Source: Candidatus Caccoplasma merdipullorum (GTDB lineage: Bacteria; Bacteroidota; Bacteroidia; Bacteroidales; G3-4614). Taken from it: 45,302 nucleotides of DNA. Below the pieces are notes generated by a model that was not told where the DNA came from, did not search any database, and worked only from the letters and a program-made list of their open reading frames with translations. Below are positions 12,864-32,095 of this stretch, one piece after another. The stretch covers positions 1-45,302 of the forward strand of contig JADIMW010000006.1 of the NCBI GenBank assembly GCA_017694415.1, given 5' to 3'. Position numbers and translations under genes: made by a program. Every line of letters starts with the position of its first letter. Position 1 is the stretch's first letter.

Positions 12864-12937
12864 GGTGCGGTAGTTCAGCTGGTTAGAATACATGCCTGTC
12901 ACGCATGGGGTCGCGGGTTCGAGTCCCGTCCGCACCG
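12864..12937 (+). tRNA. tRNA-Asp (GTC)
   Basis: A full cloverleaf can be drawn. Acceptor GGTGCGG pairs with CCGCACC, discriminator G. The D arm contains AGCTGGTTA. The anticodon stem CATGC/GCATG encloses CTGTCAC with anticodon GTC at 12898-12900. The T arm is GCGGG TTCGAGT CCCGT (one G-T pair). The terminal CCA is not encoded, so it must be added, for example by the CCA-adding enzyme at 29340-30800. Confidence 0.97.
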
Positions 12938-12944
12938 CAAACAG

Positions 12945-13308: not shown

Positions 13309-13863
13309 ATGCGACGGTTATTGTTAATCATCGACCCGCAAATGGATTTTATCGACGGCAGCCTGCCTGTCCCGGGTGCGGCGGCATGCATGGAGGCTCT
13401 GGCTGAATATATACGCAACGCGAAGGATAATTATGTTTGCAAAGCTGTTACTACCGACTGGCACCCGTATAATCATTGTTCTTTTGCGGAACAAGGAGGC
13501 GGGTGGCCGATGCATTGCGTGCAAAACAGTTCGGGTGCGGCTGTTTTTCCTGCCGTACTGGAGGCTCTTTATTCGACTCCGGGCAAAGTTATGATTCTCC
13601 GAAAGGGGGTACGGAAAAGAACGGAAGAGTATTCGATATTCAAGAACCGCCGTTCGTCTATACAATTGGACAATGTCATACGCAACATGAAAATTGAAGG
13701 GATAGATATTTGCGGTATTGCCGGAGATGTATGCTTACTGAACACGCTTAAAGACGGAATAGAATTATACGGAGCCGGCATGTTCCGCGTATTGCCTCGT
13801 TTCTCGCCTTCGCTCGACGGGGGCGTATTGTTGAATAACGCCATAAAATCCTTATCGGAATGA
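13309..13863 (+). CDS. pncA: Nicotinamidase (isochorismatase-like hydrolase)
   Basis: 184 residues of the cysteine-hydrolase isochorismatase superfamily. The catalytic triad is visible: Asp9 (IIDPQMDF), Lys99 (ILRKG) and Cys142 (AGDVCLLN). Metal ligands Asp50, His52 and His56 lie in TTDWHPYNHCSF, as in nicotinamidases. It would deamidate nicotinamide to nicotinate for NAD+ salvage. The next gene makes nicotinate mononucleotide, and the two overlap by 4 nt (ATGA), which makes nicotinamide a much better substrate guess than isochorismate. Both converge with the TIR/nSTAND operon, whose TIR domain could consume NAD+ and release nicotinamide. Confidence 0.9.
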   Translation: MRRLLLIIDPQMDFIDGSLPVPGAAACMEALAEYIRNAKDNYVCKAVTTDWHPYNHCSFAEQGGGWPMHCVQNSSGAAVFPAVLEALYSTPGKVMILRKGVRKRTEEYSIFKNRRSSIQLDNVIRNMKIEGIDICGIAGDVCLLNTLKDGIELYGAGMFRVLPRFSPSLDGGVLLNNAIKSLSE

Positions 13864-15074
13864 AACAGATAATAAATCACTTTACCGATGACGACCTGTA
13901 CAAGTTTTCGATGTGCTGCGCGGTCATTGACAATTTCCCGAGAGCTCAAGTGAAATATACTTTTACCGACCGCGACAATACTGTATATCCCGAAGGGTTC
14001 GCCCGTGAATTGACCGAACAGATAGAGAGTTTCGAATCGCTGCGGATTACCGACGACGAGATTGATTTCATGAAACGCAAATGCTATTTTATTCCGGGCT
14101 GGTTCTACAACTACCTTAAAGGATTCCGATTCAACAGGAAATGGGTAAAGGCCCGACAAGACGATGAAGGGCATTTGCATATCGATATTGAAGGGAGCTG
14201 GTCGGATACGATATTTTTGGAGGTAAAGATTTTAGCTGTCATATCGGAACTTTATTATGTCATGACGGGCAAAAGCCGTCTGTTCGATTACGATGCGTAC
14301 TACGAAAAGACATACGGCAAAGGGGCTCGCCTGTTAGATGCTGGATGCGTGTTCAGCGATTTCGGCACGAGACGCCGCGCCTCGTTCGAGGCTGAGGATA
14401 CTGTTGTAAGGGCAATGAAAGAGTGCTGCCGCGACAAGAACGGAGGGAAGGGCAAGTTTGTCGGGACGAGCAATGTTTACTTGGCAATGAAACACGACGT
14501 TCTCCCGGTAGGGACAATGGCTCACGAGTTTGTCTGTGCAATAGGTGGGATGTTCGGCCCGCAAATGGCAAACAATATAGCGATGAATTCGTGGCGCAAT
14601 ACGTTCCGCGGGGCACTGGGCACATATCTTTACGACAGTTTCGGCTGGGATATTTTCAGCATGAATTTTTCGGAGGATTTCGCAAATTTGTTCAAAGGTC
14701 TCAGAATAGACAGTGGAGACAATTACGAACAACTGTCGAACATTGTGGCTAAATACCGTTCTCTTGGTATCGACCCGAAAACGAAACAGGTAGTTTTCAG
14801 CAACGCTCTCTGTACGGATACGGCCATAGAGATAGAAAAATACGCTCGCAACCTTTGTCTCCCGTCATACGGAATAGGAACTCACTTTACCAATGATTTC
14901 GACGGTGTCAAACCGATGAATATCGTAATAAAGCTTATTGCCGCAAAAATCACCGAATCGTGGAAGTTTTACAACGATACTTGCAAAATAAGCGAAGATA
15001 AAGGGAAGCATACGGGTAACCCCGATGTTGTCCGTCGCTTTATGGAGATACTCCACATAAAGCAACAAGCATAA
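13860..15074 (+). CDS. pncB: Nicotinate phosphoribosyltransferase
   Basis: 404 residues. It condenses nicotinate with PRPP to nicotinate mononucleotide, the rate-setting Preiss-Handler step of NAD+ synthesis. Characteristic stretches are HFTDDDLYKFSM near the N-terminus, FSDFGTRRRASFEAE, a LRIDSGDNYEQLS phosphoribosyl-binding segment and GIGTHFTNDFDG. Length is standard for the bacterial PncB branch. The ATG overlaps the pncA stop by 4 nt, so the pair is translationally coupled. No convincing terminator follows; AACGG/CCGTT at 15077-15095 could form a weak hairpin. The operon ends 140 bp from the stop of a convergent accessory operon. Confidence 0.95.
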   Translation: MKQIINHFTDDDLYKFSMCCAVIDNFPRAQVKYTFTDRDNTVYPEGFARELTEQIESFESLRITDDEIDFMKRKCYFIPGWFYNYLKGFRFNRKWVKARQDDEGHLHIDIEGSWSDTIFLEVKILAVISELYYVMTGKSRLFDYDAYYEKTYGKGARLLDAGCVFSDFGTRRRASFEAEDTVVRAMKECCRDKNGGKGKFVGTSNVYLAMKHDVLPVGTMAHEFVCAIGGMFGPQMANNIAMNSWRNTFRGALGTYLYDSFGWDIFSMNFSEDFANLFKGLRIDSGDNYEQLSNIVAKYRSLGIDPKTKQVVFSNALCTDTAIEIEKYARNLCLPSYGIGTHFTNDFDGVKPMNIVIKLIAAKITESWKFYNDTCKISEDKGKHTGNPDVVRRFMEILHIKQQA

Positions 15075-15214
15075 AACGGCATATATTTCCGTTCTTCTTC
15101 CATGCGGGAATTTTGCATTCTGCCCCTTTCTAACTTCCGCAACGGTACAAATGCAAAGGGAGTGCCTAAAGTCTCTACACCTTCACTTAAAAATTGCATG
15201 TTGCCGACTGCTTC

Positions 15215-17938
15215 TTATTTGCCTGATTGCCGGTTCTGCTTGTAGGCACTCTTCGTGGCTTTCAATATTTGCCTATATACATTGCTGTTTACATAACAGT
15301 AAAACCAGTCCGTATAAAGAGGCTCTTTGCGCTGCGTAATTGTTATGATGTTGTCCATGTCGGTAGTAAAGGAATATGACGCATCGACATATACCGACGA
15401 TTTCAACTCTCTGGATGCCAATATGTCGGAGAATGCATCCAATTCCATGCCGTTGTGCCATATCAGCCCTTTGCTTTCTACGCTCGATGCCAGCAGTATT
15501 GCAGGCACGGGGATTTTTTGCTGGAATGACAGATACCGTATGTTCCTGCACATGTCGGGATAGGCTATTATTACAGGTTTGTCGCCGGCATATTTGTTCC
15601 CTTTATCGAACTCGCTCCATGACACGAGCGGTTTGTTCGACTTCACGTTTTCATCTATCGCCTTTATAATCCGCTCTTTCTGAACTTTGGTAAGATAACG
15701 GATATGTGCGATAAATCCATGTTTGTCATAAGAGCCTTTTAGTCCGGATATTTCAACCAAACGGTAATCGAGAGTAAGAGGGTCGATTCTGAAAACCACC
15801 ATCTTCTTCTCCTTTTCTGTCGTAAGGACGGAATAGAGCGACCATTTTGCCATTATCTCGTTCAATGTGGGGGTTTCTGCAAAATCGGCCGAATATTCGC
15901 CGTATATCAATACAACATCATTGTCTTTAAGCCCGAGAGAATATGCTATACTGTCGGTTACCTCTACACTCATTACCTTTGGCAATTCGTTGCGGAGCAT
16001 TTTAAAGTCTTCTATTACATCGTTGTTTTCGTCGTAATATTTGCTACGTCCGTTTGCGCCGATTCTCTGGTAATAATACAACTGTTCCGATGTTACATCG
16101 ATATAATCCTTTTCGTTAAATTCGTCCCTGCCCGTGAATGACGACAATTCGTCCTTGCACGAATAGATGGCATCGGCTCTGTGCCACCTCGCTCCGCGGT
16201 ATCCTCCCGAACGGCTCGGGATACCGTAACAGTTTATATCGTACAGGCTTTTGACTTTTGTAAATGTCGTGTCGAAAACAGTCGCGACACACTCAATCAT
16301 CGCTCCGTCCTTGTTGTATATATAGTTTTTCGATGTATATGTCAGAGAATCCGTCTCTTTTATACGTTTTGCTCCCTTGTCGCCTACATTTACCGGTTTG
16401 CCGTCCGAATCGAAATACATGCCGGTTACTACTGTTTTGCCTTGACTGTCGTTATATGAAATAATATTTTTGAACCACCCCGAGAGTTGTGTCCGCGGAC
16501 TTCCGTCTTTTTCGTAATATGCAACCGATACCGTCCGGCCTTTTGCATCGAACATGTCTATTTCGTACGTTCCGTCGCCTAACATTTCATATATGCAACT
16601 GTCGGTCTTTTCGTATTTATACACGAGTTCCTCCTGTCCTGTACACGACGAATACTCTTCCGACAACACTATTTCTCCCGCTGCGCCGTATCCGTATCGT
16701 TTCCGCGACGGATATAGCACTGTTACGCACGGATTCTCATCCTTGTCGAGGTTCAACTGTTCCGTTATCCTTCCTGCATCATCATATTCTTTTTTTATAA
16801 CGGCGATTCCGGAATGGCTGTTGTTTACAAGTTCACCGTTGCTGTCGTAAAAACGGATATCGGTAATGTCGCCATAATCGTTGTACGAATATGCAATCTT
16901 ATGTATTCCCGATGCATTGCTGTCGGGATTCAAGCCGTCGGCCGACGTAAAATACAACTCCGACTGGCGTCCGTACATGTCATACCGGCTGTTGATTCTT
17001 ACTACTCCTTCTCCACCGGCAGAAAAGGGCGAAGAAGTCATCTTCATCGGTTTCCATTCCGTATCCATGCAGGTTACCGACGTTATATCGTAACCTGTCC
17101 ATGTAAATTCCAATCCGCAGTTTCCGCGATTGTCGGCAGCAAGCCTGCCTTTTCCGTCGCGCAACTCTTTTCGCAGTATTCTTCCTTCGGCATCATAGAC
17201 AAAACACTCTGCCGAAACCCCGTAAGAGTTCGGTTTAGTTATTCCTGCGGCATCCATATACTCTATAACCCTGTCATTCCCCCACTTGTCCTCGGTTATC
17301 ATCACCAGAGTTCCGTATGTATAGCCGGGGTCTTTACGCATCTCTGCCGGCAAGCCGTAGCAATCCTTGTACGAACCTACATACTGCTCGTTACCGTAGG
17401 CATCGCGCCCTATCGGGGTTCGGGAAAACAGATATACTATATTCCCGTCTTTGTCGAGGGCGCGCTCTTGTATGAGATTTATTCCCGACGGGTCGGGTAT
17501 AAGTTCGAATATACATGTAGTTTTAAGTTTCTCCACCCACTTGGTATCGGCGGACATGTCGGATTCGGAGGTATATATGTTCAATATGTACGGACTTAAT
17601 CCTGAAGACACGAAATCGCCCCGCCCGTTTATAGATTCCATCTTGCACCACCGGCCTTTTGCGTTGCGATTGGTAAACCGATAGACTATACCATGGTGGC
17701 GCGCCGTTTCTTCCGTAATCATCTTAAGCGGGGCATACCATCCGTACTGTTTTTTTATGCTTGTACAATATACCGTATCGGGCAACGGAGCTGCATGGTG
17801 TCGGTGTTTTTCCGGTACATCTGCTTGTCCGACCCGTTCATATCCCTTTTTCATATCGACAAGCATTGACCTCCGAATCTGGGGATATACGGCCTGCGAC
17901 AGTATAAAGAGGAGTATTGCTATTGTATTTTTTTTCAT
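15215..17938 (-). CDS. Exported YD-like repeat protein with PDZ-like domain (fourth gene of the TIR/nSTAND operon)
   Basis: 907 residues from ATG 17938, chosen because it gives a clean signal peptide (MKKNTIAILLFILSQAVYPQ) and lies 7 nt after the upstream stop; an in-frame ATG at 17959 would overlap that gene. No lipobox is seen, so it is probably periplasmic or surface-exposed. The body holds at least six loosely repeated units of the form YD-x-x-GR (YDAEGRILRK, YDMYGRQSEL, YDDAGRITEQ, FDAKGRTVSV), like weak Rhs/YD repeats. Near 655-723 a PDZ-like stretch (SIAYSLGLKDNDVVLIYG) occurs. The last 180 residues are unrecognised. Residues from about 65 on align with the second half of the nSTAND protein and with the 377-residue neighbour. 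It is probably a sensor or ligand partner; this is inference. Confidence 0.7.
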   Translation of the reverse strand: MKKNTIAILLFILSQAVYPQIRRSMLVDMKKGYERVGQADVPEKHRHHAAPLPDTVYCTSIKKQYGWYAPLKMITEETARHHGIVYRFTNRNAKGRWCKMESINGRGDFVSSGLSPYILNIYTSESDMSADTKWVEKLKTTCIFELIPDPSGINLIQERALDKDGNIVYLFSRTPIGRDAYGNEQYVGSYKDCYGLPAEMRKDPGYTYGTLVMITEDKWGNDRVIEYMDAAGITKPNSYGVSAECFVYDAEGRILRKELRDGKGRLAADNRGNCGLEFTWTGYDITSVTCMDTEWKPMKMTSSPFSAGGEGVVRINSRYDMYGRQSELYFTSADGLNPDSNASGIHKIAYSYNDYGDITDIRFYDSNGELVNNSHSGIAVIKKEYDDAGRITEQLNLDKDENPCVTVLYPSRKRYGYGAAGEIVLSEEYSSCTGQEELVYKYEKTDSCIYEMLGDGTYEIDMFDAKGRTVSVAYYEKDGSPRTQLSGWFKNIISYNDSQGKTVVTGMYFDSDGKPVNVGDKGAKRIKETDSLTYTSKNYIYNKDGAMIECVATVFDTTFTKVKSLYDINCYGIPSRSGGYRGARWHRADAIYSCKDELSSFTGRDEFNEKDYIDVTSEQLYYYQRIGANGRSKYYDENNDVIEDFKMLRNELPKVMSVEVTDSIAYSLGLKDNDVVLIYGEYSADFAETPTLNEIMAKWSLYSVLTTEKEKKMVVFRIDPLTLDYRLVEISGLKGSYDKHGFIAHIRYLTKVQKERIIKAIDENVKSNKPLVSWSEFDKGNKYAGDKPVIIAYPDMCRNIRYLSFQQKIPVPAILLASSVESKGLIWHNGMELDAFSDILASRELKSSVYVDASYSFTTDMDNIITITQRKEPLYTDWFYCYVNSNVYRQILKATKSAYKQNRQSGK

Positions 17939-17945
17939 GGCAAAT

Positions 17946-19079
17946 CTATCTCGAAGCATTTTCTTCCGTCATGACGTTACCTTCAATATCGTAATAGGTC
18001 GTTTCGGTTATTACCCCGTCGGGGGCATACCGATATACTATCTTGTGCAACCCGGAAGAGGTTGTATCATTGTTCCCGAACTCGTCCATAAAAACCGATT
18101 CCACATCGCGGCCGTATTCGTCCTTTCTGGTATCGCAGCGTATGAACGTACGCAGACCGCTCGCACGCAGGGACGGCATCCGCATCGGTTCGAGGTTTTC
18201 ATCTACACGGATAACCGAGCAGATATTGTTTTCATCGTCGTATATATACAGGTTCCCGCAGTTTCCCCAATTATCTCGGATATTGTCGCCTGTAACATTA
18301 TGCGATGTTACACGTATCACCCTGTCCTTGTCGTCGTATAGATAACATTCTCTGTCCACGCCGTTGGGGTTGTATTTTCCCAATCCTTGTCCGTCGAGGT
18401 AGTTTATCACGGAATCGCGACCGCATCTATCGTATGTTATAGAAACGACGCTTCCGTATGTCGTTGTCGAATCGGAACGCATATCGGCAGGAAGCCCCCA
18501 TGCATCGTTATAACTCCCCACAATCGTATTGTCGGAAATCTTCACGGGGATAAAGCTGTAAATCAACGTCCCGTCCTTATCGTATGCCCGCTCTTCGACA
18601 ATTTCGTTTCCCGACAAATCGGATGTCATAAACCACTGCGTTATCCGGTTTACGTTTATGCGCCACTCGATATTGTCGGTTTCGGCCGCATTTTTTTTGT
18701 CTATCACATACGGGCTGATATTGTGCTTGCATGTCATTGAATCCTGATGCATAGCCTGCACATGCTGCCAGTGTCCCTGCCTGTTGCGCATCGACAGGCG
18801 GAAATAGTACGGAAGACGGTTTGCCACTTCCTGCGTAATTGTATCGCCAACCCCTTCATACCATGTGTGTTTGCGTATTATATCTCTGTACAAAGCCGTT
18901 TCTCCGCTTTCTTCTGTTTCGGCATTATGCGATGCCGTTGCCCTGTGCGATACAGGTATGGACAACCTTGTATTCCTGTTCTCGGAGGACTTGTTGATTA
19001 TCGATATTTTACGAACCTGTCCCTGAAGTGAAAGCAGCCCGATGAAAATGAACATAAATATAAAGCCTGTCTTTGTCAT
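17946..19079 (-). CDS. Short exported paralogue of the YD-like sensor module (third gene of operon)
   Basis: 377 residues with signal peptide MTKTGFIFMFIFIGLLSLQG. It is collinear with the first ~370 residues of the downstream 907-residue protein: shared blocks include ERAYDKDGTLIY / ERALDKDGNIVY, VGSYNDAWGLPADMR / VGSYKDCYGLPAEMR, NWGNCG / NRGNCG and GLHKIVYRY / GIHKIAYSY. It ends where the longer protein continues into more repeats and the PDZ-like domain, so it is either a natural single-module form or a 3'-truncated duplicate; the stop is clean and the downstream gene starts 7 nt later. Its ATG overlaps the nSTAND stop by 4 nt, indicating translational coupling. Function unknown; exported sensor component is inferred. 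Confidence 0.7.
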   Translation of the reverse strand: MTKTGFIFMFIFIGLLSLQGQVRKISIINKSSENRNTRLSIPVSHRATASHNAETEESGETALYRDIIRKHTWYEGVGDTITQEVANRLPYYFRLSMRNRQGHWQHVQAMHQDSMTCKHNISPYVIDKKNAAETDNIEWRINVNRITQWFMTSDLSGNEIVEERAYDKDGTLIYSFIPVKISDNTIVGSYNDAWGLPADMRSDSTTTYGSVVSITYDRCGRDSVINYLDGQGLGKYNPNGVDRECYLYDDKDRVIRVTSHNVTGDNIRDNWGNCGNLYIYDDENNICSVIRVDENLEPMRMPSLRASGLRTFIRCDTRKDEYGRDVESVFMDEFGNNDTTSSGLHKIVYRYAPDGVITETTYYDIEGNVMTEENASR

Positions 19080-22000
19080 GGTTCGCTGTGTTTTAATACG
19101 TAATTGAAACGGCGCAACTCTTCACGCGATAGTTTTATATAATGATATTCTTCATTTCCGGCCTTGCCGCGGCATACCTCTTTTTGTATCCGCCGGAATC
19201 TGAATCCCGACGGACGCAATACCTCCATGGCAAGAGTTGCAGTGCCGGCACGTTGCCATTCTGCAACTAAACGGGCTTCGGTATCGCCTGTTTCCCAGTT
19301 TCCCAACCGTACTATTCTGTCCCCGTCGCGAAAACCGGCCTTGTAAAGAGGACTCTCTTTATCCAGTATATGCAGGAACGGGAACTGTACGTCGGATATA
19401 TTGTCGGCCGGGACAAATGATGTCTGTCCGAGCGGTGCGGTTATCTCTATCTCTTCCTGCGTCGTTTTCAGTGTTACCACCTTGTTTTGCAGGTTCAGAT
19501 ACGACACCTTGAAATAACTGTCGGATACAGGATCGAAAAGCGTACTCGGCATATTGAATTCGTCCACTACTTTTATCCCTGCATAGTTGTTATTGTTATC
19601 CTTGTTGAAATAAAGCATGTAATACAGCAGGCCTTCCTCTTCCCAATCGGCGCATCTGACGGGTGTGCCATCGACCCCCATTACAGCACGGGCGTACCCG
19701 TTTTCATAAAAATACATCATCGATTTGAGTATCTTCATGTTTTCGTCATACAGCTTGTAATACTTTATATGCTTCTTGTCGTCGAACTGCTGTTCTTTAC
19801 AATAGTACGACGTTACTATTCCGTACTCGTTTTTTATCGTAGGGCACGGTACCGTCCCTCTCCGCTTGTTGAATGTATAATACTTTATTATCTCCTTTTC
19901 GCCCGATACGGACTTTTCCCTCTTGTGGAATATCATTGTGGAATCTTCCTCTGCGGTTTTCCAATTTACCGGGGTTTTGTCTCTTCCGTAAAATACTGTA
20001 ACATGTTTGTCTTGCCCGAACGAATCGACCCGTTCGATATAATACTGTTTTTTTACATCGTCCGTTATTATCGTCTGCCTGTTGTCTTCTATTATCTTTT
20101 CGTAATAATAGATGCGTTTTTTATCTGCCGAACTGAAATGCTCCTCACGCAACAATTCCCCTGATTCGGAATATCGCCATGCCTTTTTATAGATACTGTC
20201 GTTTTTAGAAATGAAAGGGTTTCCGTCCTTATCGAGTTTCTCAATCTGCGTCAAATACCCTTTTGCTCCGGAATACTCGTATTTAACCGTTGCAGGGTAT
20301 GACACATATAGTTTTCCCTCTATTTTTTCCTCTATTATATTGCCGTGCGCATCGCGTTTCATATATTTTACGGCAACCGGTTTTTCGTCCCTCGGGTTAT
20401 ACATGTACGCCTTATCTTTTACGGTACATATTTTATAATACCCGTCCGGCCCGTAAACTTTCATTATCGTGGTATCTTGCAGGCTGGATACTTTTCCGTA
20501 CGATACGATTGTAGTATCGCCTTTCAGTTCGGTTGTACGAACATTGTACCACGATTCCGATACGCGTCCGAACTCATCGAGCGTATATCGCGATACGCTT
20601 TTGTCGTCGGGATATTTATATGCGAAACCGCAGATATTGTCGGCAGTAATGGAACGGCAGACTCCCAGATTGTCGTAATACAATACGTCAGCTATCCGAC
20701 CTTCATCGTTTATTGTTATCCGCATGCGGTTTACGCTGTTGTCGCGTATTTCGAGGTTCTGCCCGGTCGCATCGACAAAGTGTCCCCACAAGTCGGTACT
20801 GTTCGGTATATGGAAATAATTGATTATATAGAGTATGTCGCCGCTTTCGTCAAGTGCTATTTCCCTGTCTATAACATTTCTGTCTTCGCCTGAAACAAAA
20901 TGCACCTGTTTTACTTTCGATACTAAACTTCGGAAATATCCGGCCTTGACGTCATTGTCGGTCATTTTGTTTTCATCGGCATCGAACATACGCATCTTCG
21001 ATAGATACGGCATTTGCGACGTGGCCGATATTATGTCCATGTCGGTATAGTTTTCGGTAAGGCGGCCACGTTTCGACAATTTGTAATATAATGGTGTCCG
21101 GGCTCTTTGTTCCAAAGTAAGTTTCTCGCCTATTCCTATCGGCCAGCCGTTGCGGCGGTCGAAATAAGCGTAACAGGCTTCGAATTTGCGGATATTCCAG
21201 TCCCAATAAAGCAAACTCGCGGACAGCAGTATCAATACCAAACCCGAAACCGCTATCAGCCGCGTCCTGTTGCGTTTTCGGATTTTCAACGCTTCAGCTT
21301 CCATCGAGGCCTTTTCGGCCGCAGCTTTGGCTTCCAGTTCTTTCAGTTTGCGGTCTTCTTCGGCCAGCAGTTTCCGTGTCTTTTCTCTTTGTGCGCGCTG
21401 TTCTTTCCGTTTGCTTATTACCGAGCAGAGTATGTCGTGTATGAATTCCACCCTATAATCGCCGGCATACGAGAACTTGCGCAGCAACTGACGGTCTATC
21501 AGTTTGTTGATATACTCTCCGCCCAATTCCCGGCACAATATCTTCAACGACTTGTTTTCGCGGCGGTTGTCTTCGTTCAAAAGATTGTCTTCGAGATATT
21601 CCACTACATTTTTGGGAATGTCTTTAAAACAATCGGAATAAAAGTTCTCGATAATCTCTCCGCCTTTTTCCTCTACAAGCCGCGCAGATATTATATCTTC
21701 GGTTTTTTCCTCATACAATCTGTTTAGGTATAACGATAAGACCGCCGAATCGACCTCCAATACGGGATGTCCGTCGAGTTCGAAATCCGTTCTGTTGGTA
21801 ACCTTTTCGATAATCAGTTTGGCAACGTCTTTCGAGACCAGACCGGGATGCGGGCGCAAAATTATTTCTGCTGCCTGCTCTTCGCTTATCGGGCGCAACC
21901 CGTAACGGTGATGTTTCAACGACGGTATGCAAGCGGTGTGATATTCAAATTCCGAAAGGAAATCCTCTCGCAACGTAAATACCAGATGTATCTCGTTGTC

Positions 22001-22636
22001 ATATACGTATCCTGCCGAGCCGTCGCCTATGTCGAACTCCATATCGTCCAAATCGAACAAGAATCCTGCATCTTTCTCCGCATCACGCGGCTGTTCGGGT
22101 TCTTCTTTGGGATGAGATGTTTCATTCAGGGCATTAGGCATGACGTTGTTCAAAACATCTGCCATCTCCTCGAAAAAACGGCGTCTTGCCAACGAATTCT
22201 GCTGCAGTGTAAAAATCTCTTCAAACTGGTCGAAAATTATAAGCAACTTCGCCCGTTCTCCGTTTTTGGTATAAAATTCGTTGCAGTGGAACAATTCCCA
22301 CAGGAGTTCGCGTGTTCCTTTCTTCGGGACTATATTTCTTATCTCTATTCCTTCCTCTACGAGTACATTGGAAATCTGGTTTACATAATCGCTCTCCTTT
22401 TCGTTATGTTCCAGTCGTATATATACGGGGGTAAAACCCTTTCTTCTCGCCGCAGGAATAACGCCGGCATTCAATATGGAGGATTTGCCTATTCCGGAAC
22501 GTCCGTACAATAGAGTATCGATATCGTTCAACACTCTTTGCGACAGAGCGCGGATGTCTTCATCTCGTCCATACAGAACCTCCCCTTCGCGATATGATTT
22601 TAGACCCAGCCATGGGTTTGAACCGTTACTGCTCAT
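19076..22636 (-). CDS. Transmembrane nSTAND NTPase with C-terminal YD-like sensor module and PDZ-like domain (second gene of operon)
   Basis: 1186 residues. The N-terminus is an nSTAND1-type NTPase: PWLGLKSYREGEVLYGR, Walker A GRSGIGKS (45-52), Walker B LLIIFDQFEEIF (131-142) and a FTLREDFLSEFE segment (220-231). A charged coiled coil (about 410-457) leads to one membrane helix (459-478). The rest, about 700 residues, is presumably extracytoplasmic. It resembles the exported neighbours (GW near 493, DESGDILYIINYF, DEFGRVSESWY) and ends in a PDZ-like domain (about 1077-1150, SPLYKAGFRDGDRIVRLG). STAND proteins are ligand-triggered oligomerising switches. This layout suggests sensing outside and signalling inside, probably to the SIR2/TIR protein encoded 9 nt upstream. 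The topology is unusual for the class and rests on one predicted helix. Confidence 0.8.
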   Translation of the reverse strand: MSSNGSNPWLGLKSYREGEVLYGRDEDIRALSQRVLNDIDTLLYGRSGIGKSSILNAGVIPAARRKGFTPVYIRLEHNEKESDYVNQISNVLVEEGIEIRNIVPKKGTRELLWELFHCNEFYTKNGERAKLLIIFDQFEEIFTLQQNSLARRRFFEEMADVLNNVMPNALNETSHPKEEPEQPRDAEKDAGFLFDLDDMEFDIGDGSAGYVYDNEIHLVFTLREDFLSEFEYHTACIPSLKHHRYGLRPISEEQAAEIILRPHPGLVSKDVAKLIIEKVTNRTDFELDGHPVLEVDSAVLSLYLNRLYEEKTEDIISARLVEEKGGEIIENFYSDCFKDIPKNVVEYLEDNLLNEDNRRENKSLKILCRELGGEYINKLIDRQLLRKFSYAGDYRVEFIHDILCSVISKRKEQRAQREKTRKLLAEEDRKLKELEAKAAAEKASMEAEALKIRKRNRTRLIAVSGLVLILLSASLLYWDWNIRKFEACYAYFDRRNGWPIGIGEKLTLEQRARTPLYYKLSKRGRLTENYTDMDIISATSQMPYLSKMRMFDADENKMTDNDVKAGYFRSLVSKVKQVHFVSGEDRNVIDREIALDESGDILYIINYFHIPNSTDLWGHFVDATGQNLEIRDNSVNRMRITINDEGRIADVLYYDNLGVCRSITADNICGFAYKYPDDKSVSRYTLDEFGRVSESWYNVRTTELKGDTTIVSYGKVSSLQDTTIMKVYGPDGYYKICTVKDKAYMYNPRDEKPVAVKYMKRDAHGNIIEEKIEGKLYVSYPATVKYEYSGAKGYLTQIEKLDKDGNPFISKNDSIYKKAWRYSESGELLREEHFSSADKKRIYYYEKIIEDNRQTIITDDVKKQYYIERVDSFGQDKHVTVFYGRDKTPVNWKTAEEDSTMIFHKREKSVSGEKEIIKYYTFNKRRGTVPCPTIKNEYGIVTSYYCKEQQFDDKKHIKYYKLYDENMKILKSMMYFYENGYARAVMGVDGTPVRCADWEEEGLLYYMLYFNKDNNNNYAGIKVVDEFNMPSTLFDPVSDSYFKVSYLNLQNKVVTLKTTQEEIEITAPLGQTSFVPADNISDVQFPFLHILDKESPLYKAGFRDGDRIVRLGNWETGDTEARLVAEWQRAGTATLAMEVLRPSGFRFRRIQKEVCRGKAGNEEYHYIKLSREELRRFNYVLKHSEP

Positions 22637-22645
22637 ATATGTTTC

Positions 22646-23971
22646 CTACTCTTGATTCATTATATGTAATATCTTGTCGGCAACAGATTTCATATTGTCG
22701 TTCTGATTGAAGATTATTGCGTTGTGCTGCTGCATCTTCTCCGGTATCGAGGCTTTGTAAAAATCGAACCCGTCTTCCGACACCGGTATTATATATTTAC
22801 GTCCCAAACTTATGGCAACCTGCATGGCTTCATCCCATTCGTTTCGGTAAACATGAACCTCGTTCCGTTCCTCCTCTATGTGTTTAGTGAAAATCGGGAC
22901 GAAATATCGTGCCGACCTTATTCCGCTTCTTATTTCCGACATGAAATTTCCGCCGTAACTTATATCGTTCCTGTCATACCAGACTCGCTTGCCTCTTGCC
23001 GACAATTCGTTGTATAAGGCTTCTGCTATTTTGGAATCGGAACGTGAATAGGAGATAAAAATATCGGTATTGGTATCGACTCTGTCGAACTTGGTCTTTT
23101 CATTTTTCGATATTTTATCTTCGAGCATCTTTTTTATCTTACCGACAACCTCTTCAGGGTCTTTCCGTATAAATGTATGGTGGCGTTCCAGAAAATCGGG
23201 CAGCCCGTCTTCCACCACGTCATATACATAGAGTCCCTCACCTTCATTTACTTTTCGTATGGAATACCATATGAAACGGAACAACCAGTCGGAATACGAA
23301 TTTCCCAACATGAGAAGATATTTGTTTTTCAATTCCGACACAAGATTGTTAGGCCGGAGATTCGTATCGGAGAGCCATGATGAACAGAAACTCAGCATGT
23401 CGGTATCGGTAAGAACATATCTGCGGGCATTTTCGCCAACTTTTCCAAACATGTAATAGACCGTAGGTTTACGCAAGTCGGCCTCCCCGCATATATCGTT
23501 ATTCTCGGACGGATTGTTGTTAAAACGCATCACCCTCAACTCGTCGCCCCAAACTTCACGCATCGCATCTTCCACAAGAGGCGTAAAGGAAGTTGTTATC
23601 ACAAACGGGAACTGCCTTATACTCAACAACTCTCTCAACAGTCTTGACGGTTGGAACTTCTTGGTGAATATTTGGTTCATTATCATATATATGGCATCCC
23701 GTTCGTTTCTGGTCTGACGAATAAAATCATAATTGTAAACCAGTTCGGAAAAGGATTTAGGCTTGTCGCTCAATCTGAACTTGGCCGAAATATATTCTAC
23801 CAGTTTGTCATGAAGATTAGCTCCGTCATATAATATGCCGGGACCTATCACAGGAATCACGTCGCCGCGCAGGATTCCCTCAATCAGTCTGTCCCATGCA
23901 GGTTTATCGTTATCTATAAAAATAGAGTCGCCGCTTATGTCTTTACTAAAAAAATCGTCAAATACATCCAT
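22646..23971 (-). CDS. SIR2-like/TIR-domain protein, putative NAD+-targeting effector (first gene of operon)
   Basis: 441 residues, no signal peptide or membrane helix. Residues 25-290 resemble the SIR2_2 fold: GDVIPVIGPGI (36-46) is the glycine-rich loop and LLMLGNSYSDWLFRF (219-233) the second nucleotide-side motif. The usual TTN-x-D is TTSFT (126-130), and the usual His-Gly is Phe175-Gly176, so the SIR2 part may have lost catalysis. Residues 302-441 are a TIR domain: DIFISYSRSD (303-312), VWYDRNDISYGGNF, and YRNEWDEA with a candidate catalytic glutamate at 378. Many bacterial TIR domains cleave NAD+ or make cyclic ADP-ribose signals on infection. It leads a four-gene operon with an nSTAND switch, so effector is the natural role; none of this is tested. 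Confidence 0.82.
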   Translation of the reverse strand: MDVFDDFFSKDISGDSIFIDNDKPAWDRLIEGILRGDVIPVIGPGILYDGANLHDKLVEYISAKFRLSDKPKSFSELVYNYDFIRQTRNERDAIYMIMNQIFTKKFQPSRLLRELLSIRQFPFVITTSFTPLVEDAMREVWGDELRVMRFNNNPSENNDICGEADLRKPTVYYMFGKVGENARRYVLTDTDMLSFCSSWLSDTNLRPNNLVSELKNKYLLMLGNSYSDWLFRFIWYSIRKVNEGEGLYVYDVVEDGLPDFLERHHTFIRKDPEEVVGKIKKMLEDKISKNEKTKFDRVDTNTDIFISYSRSDSKIAEALYNELSARGKRVWYDRNDISYGGNFMSEIRSGIRSARYFVPIFTKHIEEERNEVHVYRNEWDEAMQVAISLGRKYIIPVSEDGFDFYKASIPEKMQQHNAIIFNQNDNMKSVADKILHIMNQE

Positions 23972-24057
23972 ACCGAAAACAATGCATTATCTATTCAAGT
24001 CCGGCAAACAGAAAATATTATTCCCCATTAACAGAACGGTATCCAAAATATTATTTC

Positions 24058-24088
24058 CAAATGTAAAATCGCGAAACAACCTTCTAAA
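24058..24088 (-). promoter_or_regulatory. Candidate promoter of the SIR2/TIR-nSTAND operon
   Basis: On the minus strand TACATTTG (24065-24058) matches TAnnTTTG. Nineteen nt upstream lies TTTA (24088-24085), one mismatch from TTTG. Transcription would begin near 24050, giving a leader of about 80 nt before the SIR2/TIR start. The inverted repeat at 24115-24148 sits just upstream and could bind a regulator. Confidence 0.6.
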
Positions 24089-24422
24089 TCATCAGGTTTG
24101 TTCAAGTGGCCGAGAAATCGATATCGCCTCTCTCTTATGATTCGATTTTTATAAATAGACCGGTAACATTAGACACAAGCAAGATATTTTGACCGAAAAC
24201 ATTCACTAATATTATGATTCAGGTATTATATATTAACCTTGCCAGCCGCACACACAAAAGACAAAACACTACCAGTTATCCATAATATAAACAGATTCAA
24301 GCACTTATTTAATTCATGTCGCGATTTAAGACACTATTAAATTCACACGGTTAAGATACTCATTTTTATTATACGGCGCAAGTTTGCGACAAATATGTCG
24401 TTTTGCCGGTTTGATATTGCAA

Positions 24423-24452
24423 AACAGTAAAACAACTCGGCATGAGTGCCGG
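24423..24452 (-). terminator. Terminator of the RyR-domain gene
   Basis: On the minus strand CGGCA-CTCA-TGCCG forms a short stem followed by AGTTGTTTTACTGTTTT. It begins right after the RyR stop, separating that gene from the operon downstream. Confidence 0.6.
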
Positions 24453-24453
24453 A

Positions 24454-24747
24454 TTATTCCTTCACTATCTTAAAACCGAGTTTCACAATTGCCTTCAGCG
24501 TTTGAAACGCCGTTTCCCTGTCGTAGTCCTTTTCCCTCTCCGTAAGTTGTTCATAAGGGACAAGACACGGATGTTCCTTTGTAGAATCGTTACGGACAGG
24601 GCCGTACTTCCAGCCGTCGGCAATACGTCCGGCAGCCCATGTCTCATGAACGTTTTTCGAAAGGAGCTCTTGCAGTTCCGACAATTCAGGAGGCAAAAAA
24701 ACATTGTCGGTATCGATTGGGCATGGGGTATAAGAGTTGTTTTTCAT
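24454..24747 (-). CDS. Small RyR-domain protein
   Basis: 97 residues from ATG 24747; a TTG at 24771 would add eight residues and is less likely. The whole protein is one RyR domain, the short repeat first seen in ryanodine receptors: YTPCPIDTDNVFLPPELSEL, then NVHETWAAGRIADGWKYGP, then HPCLVPYEQLTEREKDYDRE and LKAIVKLGF. Free-standing RyR proteins are found in many Bacteroidota; their role is unproven, with ligand binding the usual suggestion. It is on the same strand as and 480 bp upstream of the SIR2/TIR operon, but its own terminator implies a separate transcript. No consensus promoter is visible before it. Confidence 0.85.
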   Translation of the reverse strand: MKNNSYTPCPIDTDNVFLPPELSELQELLSKNVHETWAAGRIADGWKYGPVRNDSTKEHPCLVPYEQLTEREKDYDRETAFQTLKAIVKLGFKIVKE

Positions 24748-24771
24748 ATCAGTATTTTTTTGAGGTTGCAA

Positions 24772-25180
24772 TATAGTTTATTTTTCATTAACAGACACGG
24801 TTTTTCGGATATGATTTAAACACACCTTTTCATCCCTCTGCATAATTTTTCAGATATTTTACCGCAACACGTCGGAACAATCAGGCATTATACTATTCAT
24901 CTGCGCGCCTGCATACAGGGTGTATTTACGCCGGACAAACCGCCGCACGCAGTATCCCCTGCCGACTGCCGCGACATTATCTGCCGATAATATTAATACG
25001 CTATGACATATCGATACTGCTTGTAATAATGGTTCGGACAGTAAAACATATCGTTCGCACAGCACCGCCACGAGAGAGGGGGATTTATACCCCCCTCTCT
25101 CGTACAGTCTTATTCATCTGCATCTCCTGTTGGTAGCCGAAACAAATCGCCATGCAGTGTCGGCACAGGTTCATGCGCTC
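24772..25180. other. Intergenic region between RyR gene and outer-membrane protein gene
   Basis: About 410 bp with no supported gene; small open frames here have no recognisable protein features. The one clear element is a strong GC-rich hairpin at 25071-25102. I see no consensus promoter. Confidence 0.45.
25071..25102. terminator. Strong hairpin downstream of the outer-membrane protein gene
   Basis: CGAGAGAGGGGG (25071-25082) pairs with CCCCCTCTCTCG (25091-25102) around an 8-nt loop. It lies about 80 nt past the stop of the minus-strand gene. No T-run follows on either strand, so it may act as a 3' end stabiliser or a factor-dependent terminator rather than a classic one. Confidence 0.5.
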
Positions 25181-25804
25181 TTAAAAATTATATCCGGCCG
25201 TCAGATAGAACGACACCATTCTGCTCTTGGGGTTGCCCTGCTGATAATTTTTTACCATGTTAATCATTCCGGCATCATACCCTGCCCCGAAACAAACCTT
25301 GTTTACCAAAACATTTACCGCCACCTTCATACCGAAATCGAAACGGTTCAGACCTCCGCGGTCGCCGAATATGTTCACGCTGTTGGTATGGCCTTGAAAC
25401 GACAGTTTGCTTTTACCTGCCACACCTATTGCCATGTACGGTCCGAAAAGAGGTTCTATCGCCCACTTGTCGTTTATATCCAAACGATAACCGAACGGCA
25501 TCTGAATTTCGAGGAAAGAGAGAGTCGATTTTATTTTAACACCTCCGGGCTGCGAAGTATTCCCGCCCTTGAGTTGGTAGAAAAGTCCGGGTTCGAAATA
25601 AAGAGGATGGTTTTTCGCTATTTTCAAACGATACAGACCGCCTACATGAAAACCGGCTTTTGCATTAAAGTTTGTAATGGTTACGATATTTATACCGCTA
25701 CGTACCCCAAAACCGCTGTCGCCCTTGTCCCATGCAAACGCACCCGACGAGAGGCCAAATGAGAGCATAAGAGCCAAAACCGAAACAAACAAAGTCCTTT
25801 TCAT
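25181..25804 (-). CDS. Outer-membrane beta-barrel protein, PorT-like
   Basis: 207 residues with signal peptide MKRTLFVSVLALMLSFGLSSGAFA's region (cleavage about residue 24). The mature part is a small eight-stranded-type barrel: alternating strands such as GFGVRSGINIVTI, YFEPGLFYQLKGG, FLEIQMPFGYRLDI and FYLTAGYNF, ending in the aromatic C-terminal residue typical of outer-membrane barrels. It fits the PorT/OmpW-like group abundant in Bacteroidota. A full consensus promoter stands 50 nt before the ATG, so it is probably a single-gene unit. No specific substrate or partner can be named. Confidence 0.82.
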   Translation of the reverse strand: MKRTLFVSVLALMLSFGLSSGAFAWDKGDSGFGVRSGINIVTITNFNAKAGFHVGGLYRLKIAKNHPLYFEPGLFYQLKGGNTSQPGGVKIKSTLSFLEIQMPFGYRLDINDKWAIEPLFGPYMAIGVAGKSKLSFQGHTNSVNIFGDRGGLNRFDFGMKVAVNVLVNKVCFGAGYDAGMINMVKNYQQGNPKSRMVSFYLTAGYNF

Positions 25805-25856
25805 AATAATTATATTTTTAGTTAGTAAAACCGTATTTTGGCAATAAAGTTCATTA

Positions 25857-25887
25857 CAAATTTAATAAAATATTTTTAATAATCAAA
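25857..25887 (-). promoter_or_regulatory. Promoter of the PorT-like gene
   Basis: On the minus strand TTTG (25887-25884), a 19-nt spacer and TAAATTTG (25864-25857) match the consensus fully. The predicted leader is about 45 nt. Confidence 0.78.
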
Positions 25888-26082
25888 AAAACACCATAAA
25901 ACAAACCTCAACGCAACCCGATGTTTCCGTTGGCAGCATATTAAGTGCCGTATTTTATCACCACTATAGTTTACATGATTTTTTAACGGGTTCCACATAG
26001 TCATTCTTACCACCGGCACACGATATGTACCGCAGGCAAAATAGACTAAAGTAAATCGGAACAGATAAAATACATTGCGTTT

Positions 26083-27927
26083 TTAATCGGCAACTGCAAT
26101 ACCCATTTTCTTCATCAGGAAACAGGCATTCATGTTCTGCGCCATGCCGGGGCGCAACTTGTACGAAAAAGTCAATTCGCCGTCCGTTATATCCGCTTCG
26201 AAGCAGAAATTGCGAATCTTGCCGGGAAAGAGTTCGGAAAGCGCACCGAGTGCCAAATCGTGGGTGGCAATTATGCCGTTTGTGCGCAACGACATGAATT
26301 GGGTTACAAGAGCGGCAGAACCCTTCTGCTTGTCTATCGAGTTCGTGCCTTTCAATATCTCGTCGAGAACAACAAACAGCTTTTCGCCGTGCTGCAACAT
26401 GTCGATTATCATTTTAAGGCGTTTAAGTTCGGCAAAGAAGTAAGATTCATTGTCGTTCAGAGAATCGCTCGTACGCAGGCTCGTTACAAGACGGACAGGA
26501 GTAACTTCCATTCGTGCCGCACATACCGGAGCACCGATACATGCCAACAGGTAGTTTACCCCTACCGTGCGCAGATAGGTGCTTTTTCCTGCCATGTTCG
26601 CACCTGTTATAATGATGAATGCCGGAGAACCGTTCATTTCGATATCGTTACGGACACAGCGGCTACGTTCGATAAGGGGGTGTCCAAGCCGCACGGCACT
26701 AAAGCGGAAGGGTTCAGAAGCGACGTTTCCGCACGAGCCCGACGCCTCTCCGTCCATAACAGAGGGATACACATAATCGGGATTGTTATATGCGAATGTA
26801 GCCAGCGAAAGCAACGCATCAATCTCGCCAATCGCCTCCAGCCAACGCGTAAAATCGGAAGCATGTTCCTCGCGCCACGCCTCTATGCGCATGGCCTGAC
26901 GCAATTCCCAAAAGAAAAGGGCGTTCAAGACGGCATAAACAAAAATATTGTTCCGCCAGTCGAGTTCATCCATAAGGCGGCTCAAACGACGTATCGCCAC
27001 CGAAGAGCTGTTTTTTCCCTCACGGGTCTTTGCTACCGTCCTTTTCAACAACGCGGCTTTCATATCGCGCTCTTCCACCAACGAAAGGAGTGCGGCATAC
27101 GTACTCAAAATCTTCAGTTTTCTTCCGTAAAGAGTTTGCAGTCGGGATACTTTTCCGGTAAATGCAAAACTGCACCCCATAAGGATTACAAAAACCGCAC
27201 CCCACTGAACGGGTGTAATTACCCCGATAAAAAGAAGCATGAGCAAAAGCAGATTTATACCTGCCACAATATACGGCAATATCCGCAACAGTCTGTTTTT
27301 TCGGAAAAGGCTCGGCGTTGCCGCCCACTCGCGCAATTCCGATTCGTCGGCTCTCTCGCCCTTGTGCATAAGCCCCAAAATCCGGAAACGCTGCCGGAAC
27401 TCAAAATCGCGGGAGAGTTCGGCAACAGCCTCCTGCCGCATCCGTATTTCTTCTCTGTCGAGGAGATGCGAAGAAAACCATGCCGCCAGACGTTTCACGC
27501 CGGGTTCTGTAACAGATCTGTTTACGGATTGAAACAGCGAACGGTCGCCGAAAACATCGAGGTCGAACGTATAAAGGTGTGAAGAATCGACAAATTCGAC
27601 TCCTCCGCAGAACGACGAAAAGTCGTTATCCAAAGCAGCAAGTTCCTGACGGTTTACATCTATCTTGGTTGCAAGATATTCCTTTTTGCAAAAGAGGCGG
27701 TTATGATACTTTACCAATAACAGGAACGGTATTGCCGTTACAGCCGCCACGCTTCCCCATACATACCACGCTTCGGCACGTAAAACAATAATGCCGGCCA
27801 CACAAGCGACAAACAACAGAAGCCGTGCTGTTCCGGTGCGATATATAACGGTCTGTATCCTGCTCAACTCGAGCCGTGTATCTTCCGTTATCTGCCGGTA
27901 ACGGCTCTTTATTTCGGATATATCCAT
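26083..27927 (-). CDS. Membrane-anchored MutS-family ATPase
   Basis: 614 residues. The C-terminal third is a MutS-type ABC ATPase: Walker A TGANMAGKST (441-450), signature-like NDNESYFFAELKRL (491-504), Walker B LFVVLDEILKGTNS (517-530) and switch His556 (IIATHD). The middle has MutS-like clamp and lever helices (DNDFSSF to about 430). The mismatch-binding domain of MutS is absent. Hydrophobic segments near 36-50, 55-72, 216-236 and 241-257 predict four membrane helices, which rules out ordinary mismatch repair. Proteins of this shape recur in Bacteroidota without a known function. It appears to be transcribed alone, from a -7 box just before its ATG. Confidence 0.85.
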   Translation of the reverse strand: MDISEIKSRYRQITEDTRLELSRIQTVIYRTGTARLLLFVACVAGIIVLRAEAWYVWGSVAAVTAIPFLLLVKYHNRLFCKKEYLATKIDVNRQELAALDNDFSSFCGGVEFVDSSHLYTFDLDVFGDRSLFQSVNRSVTEPGVKRLAAWFSSHLLDREEIRMRQEAVAELSRDFEFRQRFRILGLMHKGERADESELREWAATPSLFRKNRLLRILPYIVAGINLLLLMLLFIGVITPVQWGAVFVILMGCSFAFTGKVSRLQTLYGRKLKILSTYAALLSLVEERDMKAALLKRTVAKTREGKNSSSVAIRRLSRLMDELDWRNNIFVYAVLNALFFWELRQAMRIEAWREEHASDFTRWLEAIGEIDALLSLATFAYNNPDYVYPSVMDGEASGSCGNVASEPFRFSAVRLGHPLIERSRCVRNDIEMNGSPAFIIITGANMAGKSTYLRTVGVNYLLACIGAPVCAARMEVTPVRLVTSLRTSDSLNDNESYFFAELKRLKMIIDMLQHGEKLFVVLDEILKGTNSIDKQKGSAALVTQFMSLRTNGIIATHDLALGALSELFPGKIRNFCFEADITDGELTFSYKLRPGMAQNMNACFLMKKMGIAVAD

Positions 27928-30800: not shown

Positions 30801-30802
30801 GT

Positions 30803-32095
30803 TTATAAAAGCGGCAGACAACTTTCAAGTTTCATTCCCCGCGACCCTTTTATCAATATCATATACCCTTCGGGCGGATTGTTCTTCAAATGTTCCAGTA
30901 ACGCCGATGTATCGGCGAATGCTTTGTAACGGCCTGCCGATGCTGAGAATTCCGCTCCTGCCAACAATACGTTATCGAAACCGAGCGATTCGAACATGGC
31001 TACAGCCTTGTCGTGTTCGCTGCGGCTTTCCGCCCCGAGTTCGAGCATGTCGCCTGCTATAAGCATCTTGCGCGGTGCGGCAATCGACGCAAAGTTCTCC
31101 GCCGCGGCTTTCATGCTCGACGGATTGGCATTGTACGCATCGAGTATTATCTCGTTACGTGCGCCTTTTATATACTGCGACCTGCTGTTGGTCGGCTTGT
31201 ATGCGGTTATTGCGGCTGCCACGTCAGCTGCCGGAACTCCGAAATAATCGCCTGCGGATGCCGCGGCAAGTATGTTGTTTATGTTGTAATCCCCTATCAG
31301 AGATGTGGGAAGATTGCCGACATGTTCTCCCGATATGTTGAGCGACACCGACAGGAACGGCGAACTTCCTGCAATGGAGCCGTTTACCTTGAGCGTCGGG
31401 GAAACGCCGTACTCTATCCGCTCTATTCCTTCCGACTTTCGGTACAATATGTCGTCTTCACGGCGTACGAACACCTTGCCTCCTTTCTGTCGGATATGGT
31501 CGTAAAGTTCGCATTTGGTACGGATAACTCCTTCGAACGAGCCGAAACCCAACAGATGTCCTTTCCCCACGTTTGTTATAAGCCCGTAATCGGGTTCGGC
31601 AATATCCACAAGCTCCTTTATATCGCCCGGGTGGCTTGCTCCCATCTCTATTACCGCCAAACTGTGTTCCGCCCGCAACTTCAACAGGGTAAGGGGAACG
31701 CCTATCTGGTTGTTCAGGTTTCCATCTGTTGCAAGAACATTGAACTTGCGGGACAATACGGCAGCGGTAAGCTCTTTAGTCGTTGTCTTGCCGTTGGTTC
31801 CGGTAATGGCGAGCATCGGGGTATTGAGCTGCCTGCGATGATGACGTGCCAACTCCTGCAAAGTTGCCAATACATTACCGACTTTTATTACTCTGTCGTC
31901 GCGATACGAATCGTCGCTGTCGGTTACGGCGTATGCACACCCTGCATCGAGTGCAGCCTTTATAAACCGGTTACCGTCGAAATGCTCCCCTTTCAGAGCA
32001 AAAAAAACAGCTCCGGGACGGCACTTGCGGGTGTCGGTCGTTACGTCGGGATTCGACAAGTATATATCATACAATTTTTCTATTTCGGTCTTCAT
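30803..32095 (-). CDS. murF: UDP-N-acetylmuramoyl-tripeptide--D-alanyl-D-alanine ligase
   Basis: 430 residues. It adds the D-Ala-D-Ala dipeptide to UDP-MurNAc-tripeptide, the last cytoplasmic step of peptidoglycan precursor synthesis. Visible features: N-terminal uridine-binding domain (TDTRKCRPGAVFFALKGEHFDGNRF), the ATP loop ITGTNGKTTTKEL (about 96-108), the NLNNQIGVPLTLL segment, EMGASHPGDIKELVDIA, and the C-terminal domain with DAYNANPSSMKAA and LIAGDMLELG. Length and order are those of MurF rather than MurE. It sits alone among amino-sugar salvage genes, away from the mur/fts cluster, with the CCA-type gene starting two nt after it. Confidence 0.95.
   Translation of the reverse strand: MKTEIEKLYDIYLSNPDVTTDTRKCRPGAVFFALKGEHFDGNRFIKAALDAGCAYAVTDSDDSYRDDRVIKVGNVLATLQELARHHRRQLNTPMLAITGTNGKTTTKELTAAVLSRKFNVLATDGNLNNQIGVPLTLLKLRAEHSLAVIEMGASHPGDIKELVDIAEPDYGLITNVGKGHLLGFGSFEGVIRTKCELYDHIRQKGGKVFVRREDDILYRKSEGIERIEYGVSPTLKVNGSIAGSSPFLSVSLNISGEHVGNLPTSLIGDYNINNILAAASAGDYFGVPAADVAAAITAYKPTNSRSQYIKGARNEIILDAYNANPSSMKAAAENFASIAAPRKMLIAGDMLELGAESRSEHDKAVAMFESLGFDNVLLAGAEFSASAGRYKAFADTSALLEHLKNNPPEGYMILIKGSRGMKLESCLPLL

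Follow-up and report, generated by a model that had tools for sequence, protein, structure and literature searches.

What kind of system is built from a SIR2-TIR protein, a membrane ATPase and two secreted proteins, and on which side of the inner membrane would it sense its trigger? The question is raised by four adjoining genes, here called A to D, on contig JADIMW010000006.1 of Candidatus Caccoplasma merdipullorum. This contig of 45,302 nucleotides (nt) is the whole stretch that we analyzed, referred to here as the window; it is one of the 88 contigs that make up the 2.1 Mb genome. We found that A and B form a recurring pair, that the SIR2 part of A has lost its catalytic residues, and that C and D are homologous to the part of B that is predicted to lie outside the cytoplasm. 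Of the readings that we considered, the one that we hold with slightly better than even confidence is that the operon encodes an envelope-facing STAND-TIR immune or abortive cell-death module.

Layout of the operon and the domains of its products

The listing of open reading frames (ORFs) in the window places all four genes on the minus strand: A at 22646-23971 (441 amino acids, aa), B at 19076-22636 (1186 aa), C at 17946-19079 (377 aa) and D at 15215-17938 (907 aa). The full ORF of D is 15215-17959 (914 aa), and an internal ATG gives the 907-aa product. There are 9 nt between A and B, a 4-nt overlap between B and C, and 7 nt between C and D when D starts at the internal ATG. A preliminary description of this DNA had given the same four genes and junctions, and the listing bears it out. 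The layout is not a matter of chance because a sister genome (G007; its locus is L032 = L118) keeps all four genes in the same order, with identities of 84, 75, 73 and 66%. The single candidate promoter described earlier was not recovered. We found no match ahead of gene A to the strict Bacteroidota promoter pattern TTTG-N17..23-TAnnTTTG, and sigma-70-like sites in 15000-26200 were close to expectation (32, versus a shuffle mean of 24.4 with a standard deviation of 5.5). The family libraries used (Pfam, PADLOC and NCBIfam) name only domains of the system, not the system.

Gene A encodes a SIR2-like domain and a C-terminal TIR domain, both over the Pfam cut-off. The SIR2_2 match (PF13289; E 7.4e-10; 39.5 bits, cut-off 24.5) covers residues 123-244 (23240-23605, minus strand), and the TIR_2 match (PF13676; E 8.4e-21; 75.2 bits, cut-off 28) covers residues 304-424 (22700-23062, minus strand). 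PADLOC matched A through the TIR part and weakly through the SIR2 part, and NCBIfam gave just sub-threshold Thoeris and retron-TIR matches. The AlphaFold model of A (pLDDT, the predicted local distance difference test, 70.3) resembles ThsA, the Avs5 SIR2-STAND protein, KomC and TIR domains by Foldseek. The TIR fold was also found by VIA, with Z up to 16.3 over 133 residues and a root-mean-square deviation of 2.9 to the SPARTA TIR; the 50 VIA matches shown cover residues from about 297 on, and the SIR2 part lies outside them.

We found that the residues expected of an active SIR2 enzyme are replaced in A. The closest solved relative of the SIR2 part by sequence is KomC (E 3e-7). In the alignment, the TTNYD motif of KomC faces TTSFT in A, with S128 at the catalytic Asn position, and the catalytic His of KomC, H146, faces F175. 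The His position was set by this alignment, including the H146N mutant entry 9xvc. Among 48 aligned A proteins, the catalytic His was missing from all 48 (F in 43, L in 4, Y in 1). The catalytic Asn was retained in 3 of the 48, a count that is biased by the 37 proteins that came from a scan with two patterns, one of which (FVITTSFT) contains the Ser found in the window. In an alignment of 11 proteins that had not been found by pattern, the Asn was retained in 4 and the His in none. Left out of the 48 were L040 (a near-copy of L039), L047, the split L085, and L087, as well as L156 and L130, for which a full-length A ORF was lacking.

The putative catalytic glutamate of the TIR part, Glu378, was present in 11 of 11 A relatives that adjoin B relatives and in 47 of 48 proteins of the wider set. 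In the lone exception, L082, a glutamate is offset by two columns, which looks like an alignment slip. Because the catalytic His is missing throughout, the SIR2 part is probably not an NADase and is probably a pseudo-enzyme adaptor; the TIR part is then the likely candidate enzyme. That is, the earlier label of a SIR2-like/TIR protein holds for the domains but probably not for SIR2 activity. An active SIR2 domain in A was considered and rejected on the basis of the KomC alignment and the 48 A proteins.

Gene B encodes an nSTAND1 NTPase followed by a transmembrane helix and an ectodomain. The nSTAND1 match is strong (PF20703; E 7.4e-25; 88.8 bits, cut-off 27.1), the same profile matches 27 of 27 B relatives, and a Walker A-type motif is present in 39 of 40 B proteins and a DQFEE-type motif in 40 of 40. 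One helix was found, at residues 460-478 (21203-21259, minus strand; 459-478 in the preliminary description), with 7 K/R in the preceding 20 residues and 4 after. Of 39 B proteins, 37 have a helix at this position, and in the remaining two it is weaker. In all 37 loci with a helix over threshold there are 5-11 K/R before it and 0-4 after. The ectodomain, residues 479-1186 (19079-21202, minus strand), consists of a beta-hairpin (YD/RHS-like) region and a weak PDZ-like tail. The PDZ-like stretch is at residues 1092-1118 (19283-19363, minus strand; PDZ_6 E 0.038, below the Pfam cut-off). At E <= 0.05, PDZ_6 matched 6 of the 27 B proteins and just one of the 22 D proteins. Neither B nor D matched a PADLOC family at E <= 1, and B matched no NCBIfam family at E <= 0.01.

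Genes C and D are related to B. D aligned with the B ectodomain over 621 columns (hhalign 99.5%, E 3.4e-23), and C aligned with its first half. Both proteins start with a hydrophobic, signal-peptide-like stretch, and a hydrophobic start is present in 25 of 26 C/D-type genes of the loci described below. C had no Pfam family over cut-off and only chance-level Cas5 scores in PADLOC (E >= 0.007). D had a sub-threshold RHS_repeat match in Pfam and a YD_repeat_2x match of 18.8 bits in NCBIfam (cut-off 15.8). Judged by these alignments, C and D are a short and a long soluble copy of the B ectodomain. The preliminary description had listed them simply as two exported proteins; the signal-peptide-like starts agree with export, but the two are not unrelated. 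The ectodomain of B is most simply placed outside the cytoplasm because signal-peptide-like starts mark its homologues C and D; the charges on either side of the helix point the same way. Together these features support the prediction, also made earlier, that the C-terminal region of B is extracytoplasmic.

Recurrence of the A-B pair and its genomic setting

We found that B accompanies A in loci that were collected through A alone. A scan of genome_contigs with four A proteins alone collected 39 loci, all from Bacteroidales save one labeled 'uncultured bacterium'; three were already known (L118 = G007, L127 = G112, L146 = G249). B follows A in all 39, with a gap of -20 to 43 nt in the 37 loci that have a called A ORF, and 34 of the 39 have a B ectodomain of the same family. 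Variants of B have extra membrane helices (L127, L128) or a shorter or different C-terminus (L130, L143, L145). A C/D-type gene lies directly after B in 21 of the 39 loci, at a spacing of -17 to 37 nt, and two such genes follow B in five (L118, L119, L121, L144, L152). That is, the genes do travel together, as had been supposed. Neither of the two outcomes named beforehand as counting against the preliminary description, separation of the genes or a purely cytoplasmic prediction for the C-terminus of B, was observed. The proposal of a four-gene system needs adjustment: the order is kept in the sister genome, but A-B is a broader core, and only a subset of its loci has all four genes.

Among eight genomes of the genus, A and B were found in two, the window genome and G007. 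A search of the order with B matched 63 of 393 genomes, most of them through the NTPase part; 16 of these regions were fetched, with a clear A relative beside the B relative in 10 and a weak one in L047. A profile of A matched 19 of 395 genomes of the phylum, several through the TIR part only, and a B relative follows or abuts A in L078, L079, L080, L082, L085 (split) and L087. A C/D profile matched 7 of 393 genomes of the order: four weakly, and three strongly (G000, G007, G249), each beside A-B. A plasmid of Paraburkholderia caribensis carries an A-B pair (L174:4286-7905) with a 4-nt overlap and a B helix at 433-451, and its A has likewise lost the SIR2 His. Haliscomenobacter has a gene annotated SIR2, then an nSTAND gene and two WD40 genes. 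Relatives on plasmids numbered 5 records for B and 3 for A, all below 60% identity. No close B relatives were found by peptide pattern in viral_contigs or genome_contigs.

The operon lies in a region that differs between members of the genus. The A proteins of other families share 59-66% identity with A; a core protein of the window genome is 57-59% identical to that of non-carrier congeners, that is, about as similar as A is across families. At the corresponding site, the non-carriers G001, G003, G004 and G006 have a single gene of 522-523 aa adjoining tRNA-Asp, which encodes a C25 peptidase in the one scanned. The site was read in four of the six non-carriers (the contig of G005 ends, and G002 was not among them), and was bounded by homologues of the window's 493-aa gene (29340-30821) and of its 156-aa and TamB genes. 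Since these non-carriers have a single peptidase-type gene there, the interval that begins at tRNA-Asp (12864-12938) and reaches about 29.3 kb behaves like an accessory island.

Most other neighbors of the operon are not shared with related loci. Beside the operon, a putative NAD-consuming system, and convergent with it lies a NAD-salvage pair (13309-15074, plus strand). Its nicotinamidase-like gene is below the NCBIfam cut-off, and its other gene, for a nicotinate phosphoribosyltransferase, exceeds that of NF003704. We ruled out this pair as a conserved part of the system: pncB is present in one of eight genus genomes, the window genome alone, and neither gene recurs in the 39 loci. Of the MutS-like, ferritin, outer-membrane protein (OMP), Nudix, pncA and pncB genes, only the first two recur, in the sister locus L118; none of the six was found in the other 38 loci (blastp, E 1e-8). 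The MutS-like protein (domains III and V; 26083-27927, minus strand) has hydrophobic N-terminal helices in the sister copy, and its gene is present in only the two A-B carriers among the eight genus genomes. In another genome (L033 = L146), an A-B-D operon is flanked by genes for a TIR-helix-FGE-sulfatase protein (L033:3986-5233) and a TIR-helix-LRR_5 protein (L033:16608-17942); these have a Toll-receptor-like layout within one bacterial protein.

RyR-domain genes beside the operon and elsewhere

The preliminary description treated the gene set as four genes alone and overlooked a gene for a RyR-domain protein (24454-24771, minus strand; 105 aa). This gene is upstream of A in the same orientation, separated from it by 482 nt, and likely has its own transcript. 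Its product scored 119.5 bits against PF02026 (Pfam cut-off 27.4). In the parts of PMC13232231 consulted, phage RyR proteins that bind or cleave cyclic ADP-ribose (cADPR) signals made by TIR proteins are anti-Thoeris factors, and H75, W78, H100 and D117 of the phage protein RyDEP are described as ligand residues. H42, W45, H67 and D84 of the window protein match these in spacing. More widely, all 30 longer RyR sequences keep the H, W and D, and 24 of them keep the second H; 29 of the sequences are distinct, because the gene set of L118 was included a second time as L032. The conserved residues do not prove cleavage, because other RyR homologues with conserved sequence are described in the same parts of that paper as binding without cleaving.

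RyR genes were enriched at A-B loci. They are present in 6 of the 39 loci (L118, L128, L143, L144, L145, L151), and additionally in L037 and L041. A RyR gene adjoins A in two loci, overlapping the A start by 4 nt in L144 and by 11 nt in L145, and in L128 a gene for an RCK-RyR protein ends 53 nt before A. The base rate in the order (45 matches in 374 genomes) predicts about 0.03 genes in the 765 kb of the 39 loci, a rough Poisson figure in that the mean genome size came from 53 listed genomes of the 374, the detectors differed (a Pfam model for the genomes, a four-sequence model for the loci), and an unrelated cause may gather RyR genes into islands. Position and recurrence suggest that the window RyR gene is a probable accessory partner of A-B.

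RyR genes away from A-B have neighbors of interest as well. TIR or TIR-transmembrane genes lie near RyR genes in L158, L160, L163, L167 and L168, and the pair in L158 overlaps by 4 nt. These are 5 of 17 RyR regions that were hand-picked (the stronger of the 45 matches plus those known earlier) and are no random sample; a small negative control of six loci gave no TIR match. Six loci (L128:7917-9929, L145:6454-8517, L163:803-2878, L164:6689-8869, L165:6653-8875 and L166:6064-8250) encode proteins, 670-740 aa long, that have two membrane helices at the N-terminus and a RyR-like stretch at the C-terminus. All except the L145 protein have a Slo-like RCK match, and in L164-L166 a small RyR gene overlaps the two-helix gene by 4 nt. 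From their sequences these proteins look like putative RyR-gated channels, with a putative CASTOR/POLLUX-like motif. RyR domains also lie behind C39-peptidase-like regions in L037:5035-6036, L145:9019-9993 and L160:3924-4910 (over cut-off in L037 only), and may possibly make these proteins RyR-regulated peptidases.

Proposed function and relation to known systems

We propose that B spans the inner membrane, the nSTAND ATPase facing the cytoplasm and the YD/PDZ-like ectodomain facing the periplasm, and that secreted C and D would act as soluble co-receptors or decoys. A ligand in the envelope, either a structural protein of an entering phage or an abnormal protein of the envelope itself, would bring B molecules together. 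STAND assembly driven by ATP would then recruit A into a complex, with the catalytically dead SIR2 domain of A as the point of contact. Lined up in this way, the TIR domains would start to act on NAD+, causing its depletion or producing a cADPR-type signal. The accessory RyR protein might bind or break down such a signal. Most studied bacterial STAND/TIR immune proteins recognize phage products intracellularly. If our proposal is true, a two-protein receptor with its sensor outside and a NAD-acting TIR inside would give bacteria an alarm at the envelope with Toll-like-receptor logic, and a SIR2 pseudo-enzyme would gain a job.

Several results weigh against an envelope-facing immune module. No A relative was found in phage records, and PADLOC, run on part of the window proteins, found no named defense system adjoining the operon. 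C/D-type genes are missing from 18 of the 39 loci (5 of the 18 end within 2.4 kb of B or were read no further) and are not essential to the core; RyR genes are absent from 33 of 39 and are no obligate part. The model of the B ectodomain is poor (pLDDT 58.1; predicted TM-score, pTM, 0.35) and shows chiefly beta hairpins. Its RHS/YD-repeat matches look good by E-value, yet no TM-score exceeds 0.14, and given the poor model we claim no firm fold, only a beta-hairpin, YD-like character. Lastly, 8 of 15 looser B relatives carry WD40 propellers, a fold that is usually cytoplasmic, after the helix. Because WD40 follows the helix in half of these relatives, the topology of B remains a prediction.

The main alternative, which we regard as unlikely, is that the operon encodes an envelope-stress or contact-killing sensor rather than an anti-phage system. 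The ectodomain and its PDZ-like tail would detect misfolding of outer-membrane proteins or harm done by competing bacteria, and A would lower NAD+, leading to growth arrest or altruistic death. PDZ domains of DegS/DegQ-type proteases read the tails of outer-membrane proteins; the low-confidence ectodomain model has a DegQ-type PDZ match (E 0.02) in addition to the PDZ-like stretch in the sequence, an OMP beta-barrel gene lies nearby (25181-25804, by Pfam), and neither viral contigs nor phage records gave a phage link for A or B. Yet the PDZ match is below the Pfam cut-off and rare among D proteins, and the OMP gene has no counterpart in L118 or in any of the other 38 loci. The patchy, island-like occurrence and high identity across families also suit a conflict system better than a housekeeping one.

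It is improbable, in our estimate, that B is wholly cytoplasmic or peripheral, with the helix as an anchor or a buried segment, the C-terminus as an Avs-like cytoplasmic sensor, and C and D serving otherwise. In favor of such an arrangement are the WD40 repeats that follow the same helix in 8 of the 15 looser relatives, and a lone helix behind an NTPase can be a false prediction; against it are the charge asymmetry in every locus with a called helix and the homology of this region to proteins with signal-peptide-like starts. Chance adjacency without joint function, in which genes for a TIR protein, for a STAND protein and for a pair of exported repeat proteins happen to lie side by side, is close to refuted: each domain alone is common in Bacteroidota and C/D genes are often absent, but A and B adjoin, overlapping or nearly so, in all 39 loci found through A, and adjoin again in Pseudomonadota.

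The envelope-facing module could also be part of a longer pathway, which we think quite doubtful as a whole. An envelope ectodomain would cluster the STAND ATPase, the pseudo-SIR2 domain would act as an adaptor that gathers the TIR domains, and these would make a cADPR-type messenger read by RyR proteins. The readers would be the small RyR proteins, RyR-peptidase fusions and two-helix, channel-like RCK-RyR proteins encoded in or near the operons. If true, such a pathway would be the prokaryotic equivalent of Toll-like signaling coupled to the cADPR-ryanodine-receptor axis known from animals. The system would make it testable whether bacterial RyR proteins are partners of TIR signals, beyond phage antagonists of them.

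The operon shares features with several known systems. Like Thoeris, it has TIR and SIR2 modules in one system, and a best Foldseek match of A is ThsA (7uxt, E 2.9e-7); the Avs5-type entry 9jap was matched as well (E 2.4e-5). It differs from Thoeris in that TIR and SIR2 are fused in A, catalytic residues are missing from the SIR2 part, A is constantly partnered by a STAND ATPase of the membrane, and A scored 40.6 bits against NF058526 (NCBIfam cut-off 220) through its TIR part only. In Thoeris, ThsB is the TIR protein, and a separate effector, ThsA (SIR2-SLOG) or a TM-macro protein, responds to the cADPR signal that the TIR protein makes. No SLOG or macro match was found by Pfam in the seven window proteins scanned; the RyR protein encoded upstream might bind such a signal. 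Like Avs5 and other SIR2-STAND proteins, it couples a SIR2-like domain to a STAND NTPase. Avs sensors act in the cytoplasm; here the pair is two proteins, not one, the TIR domain is the probable effector, and the sensor is predicted to lie behind a transmembrane helix. B and D matched no curated Avs model in PADLOC, nor did B in NCBIfam. KomC, the Kongming SIR2 NADase, is the closest sequence relative of the SIR2 part, and differs in retaining the motif and the His that A has replaced.

The predicted nSTAND1/NACHT conflict systems share the NTPase clade of B and also use TIR or SIR2 effectors; in the parts consulted, Kaur et al. 2021 (PMC8195603) and PMC10907252 predict such counter-invader systems, and predict some STAND sensors diversified by diversity-generating retroelements, or the targets of sensors, to be periplasmic or joined to transmembrane helices. 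A SIR2-TIR and nSTAND1-transmembrane pair with secreted ectodomain copies is not described in those parts of the two papers, and no paper on a SIR2-TIR and nSTAND1-transmembrane system was found in the open-licence literature. Animal Toll-like receptors and bacterial TIR-transmembrane proteins share the signaling logic of ectodomain, membrane helix and TIR; in the operon, unlike in Toll-like receptors, ectodomain and TIR are on two proteins, joined by the STAND ATPase. An extracytoplasmic STAND sensor has been suggested before (PMC10907252).

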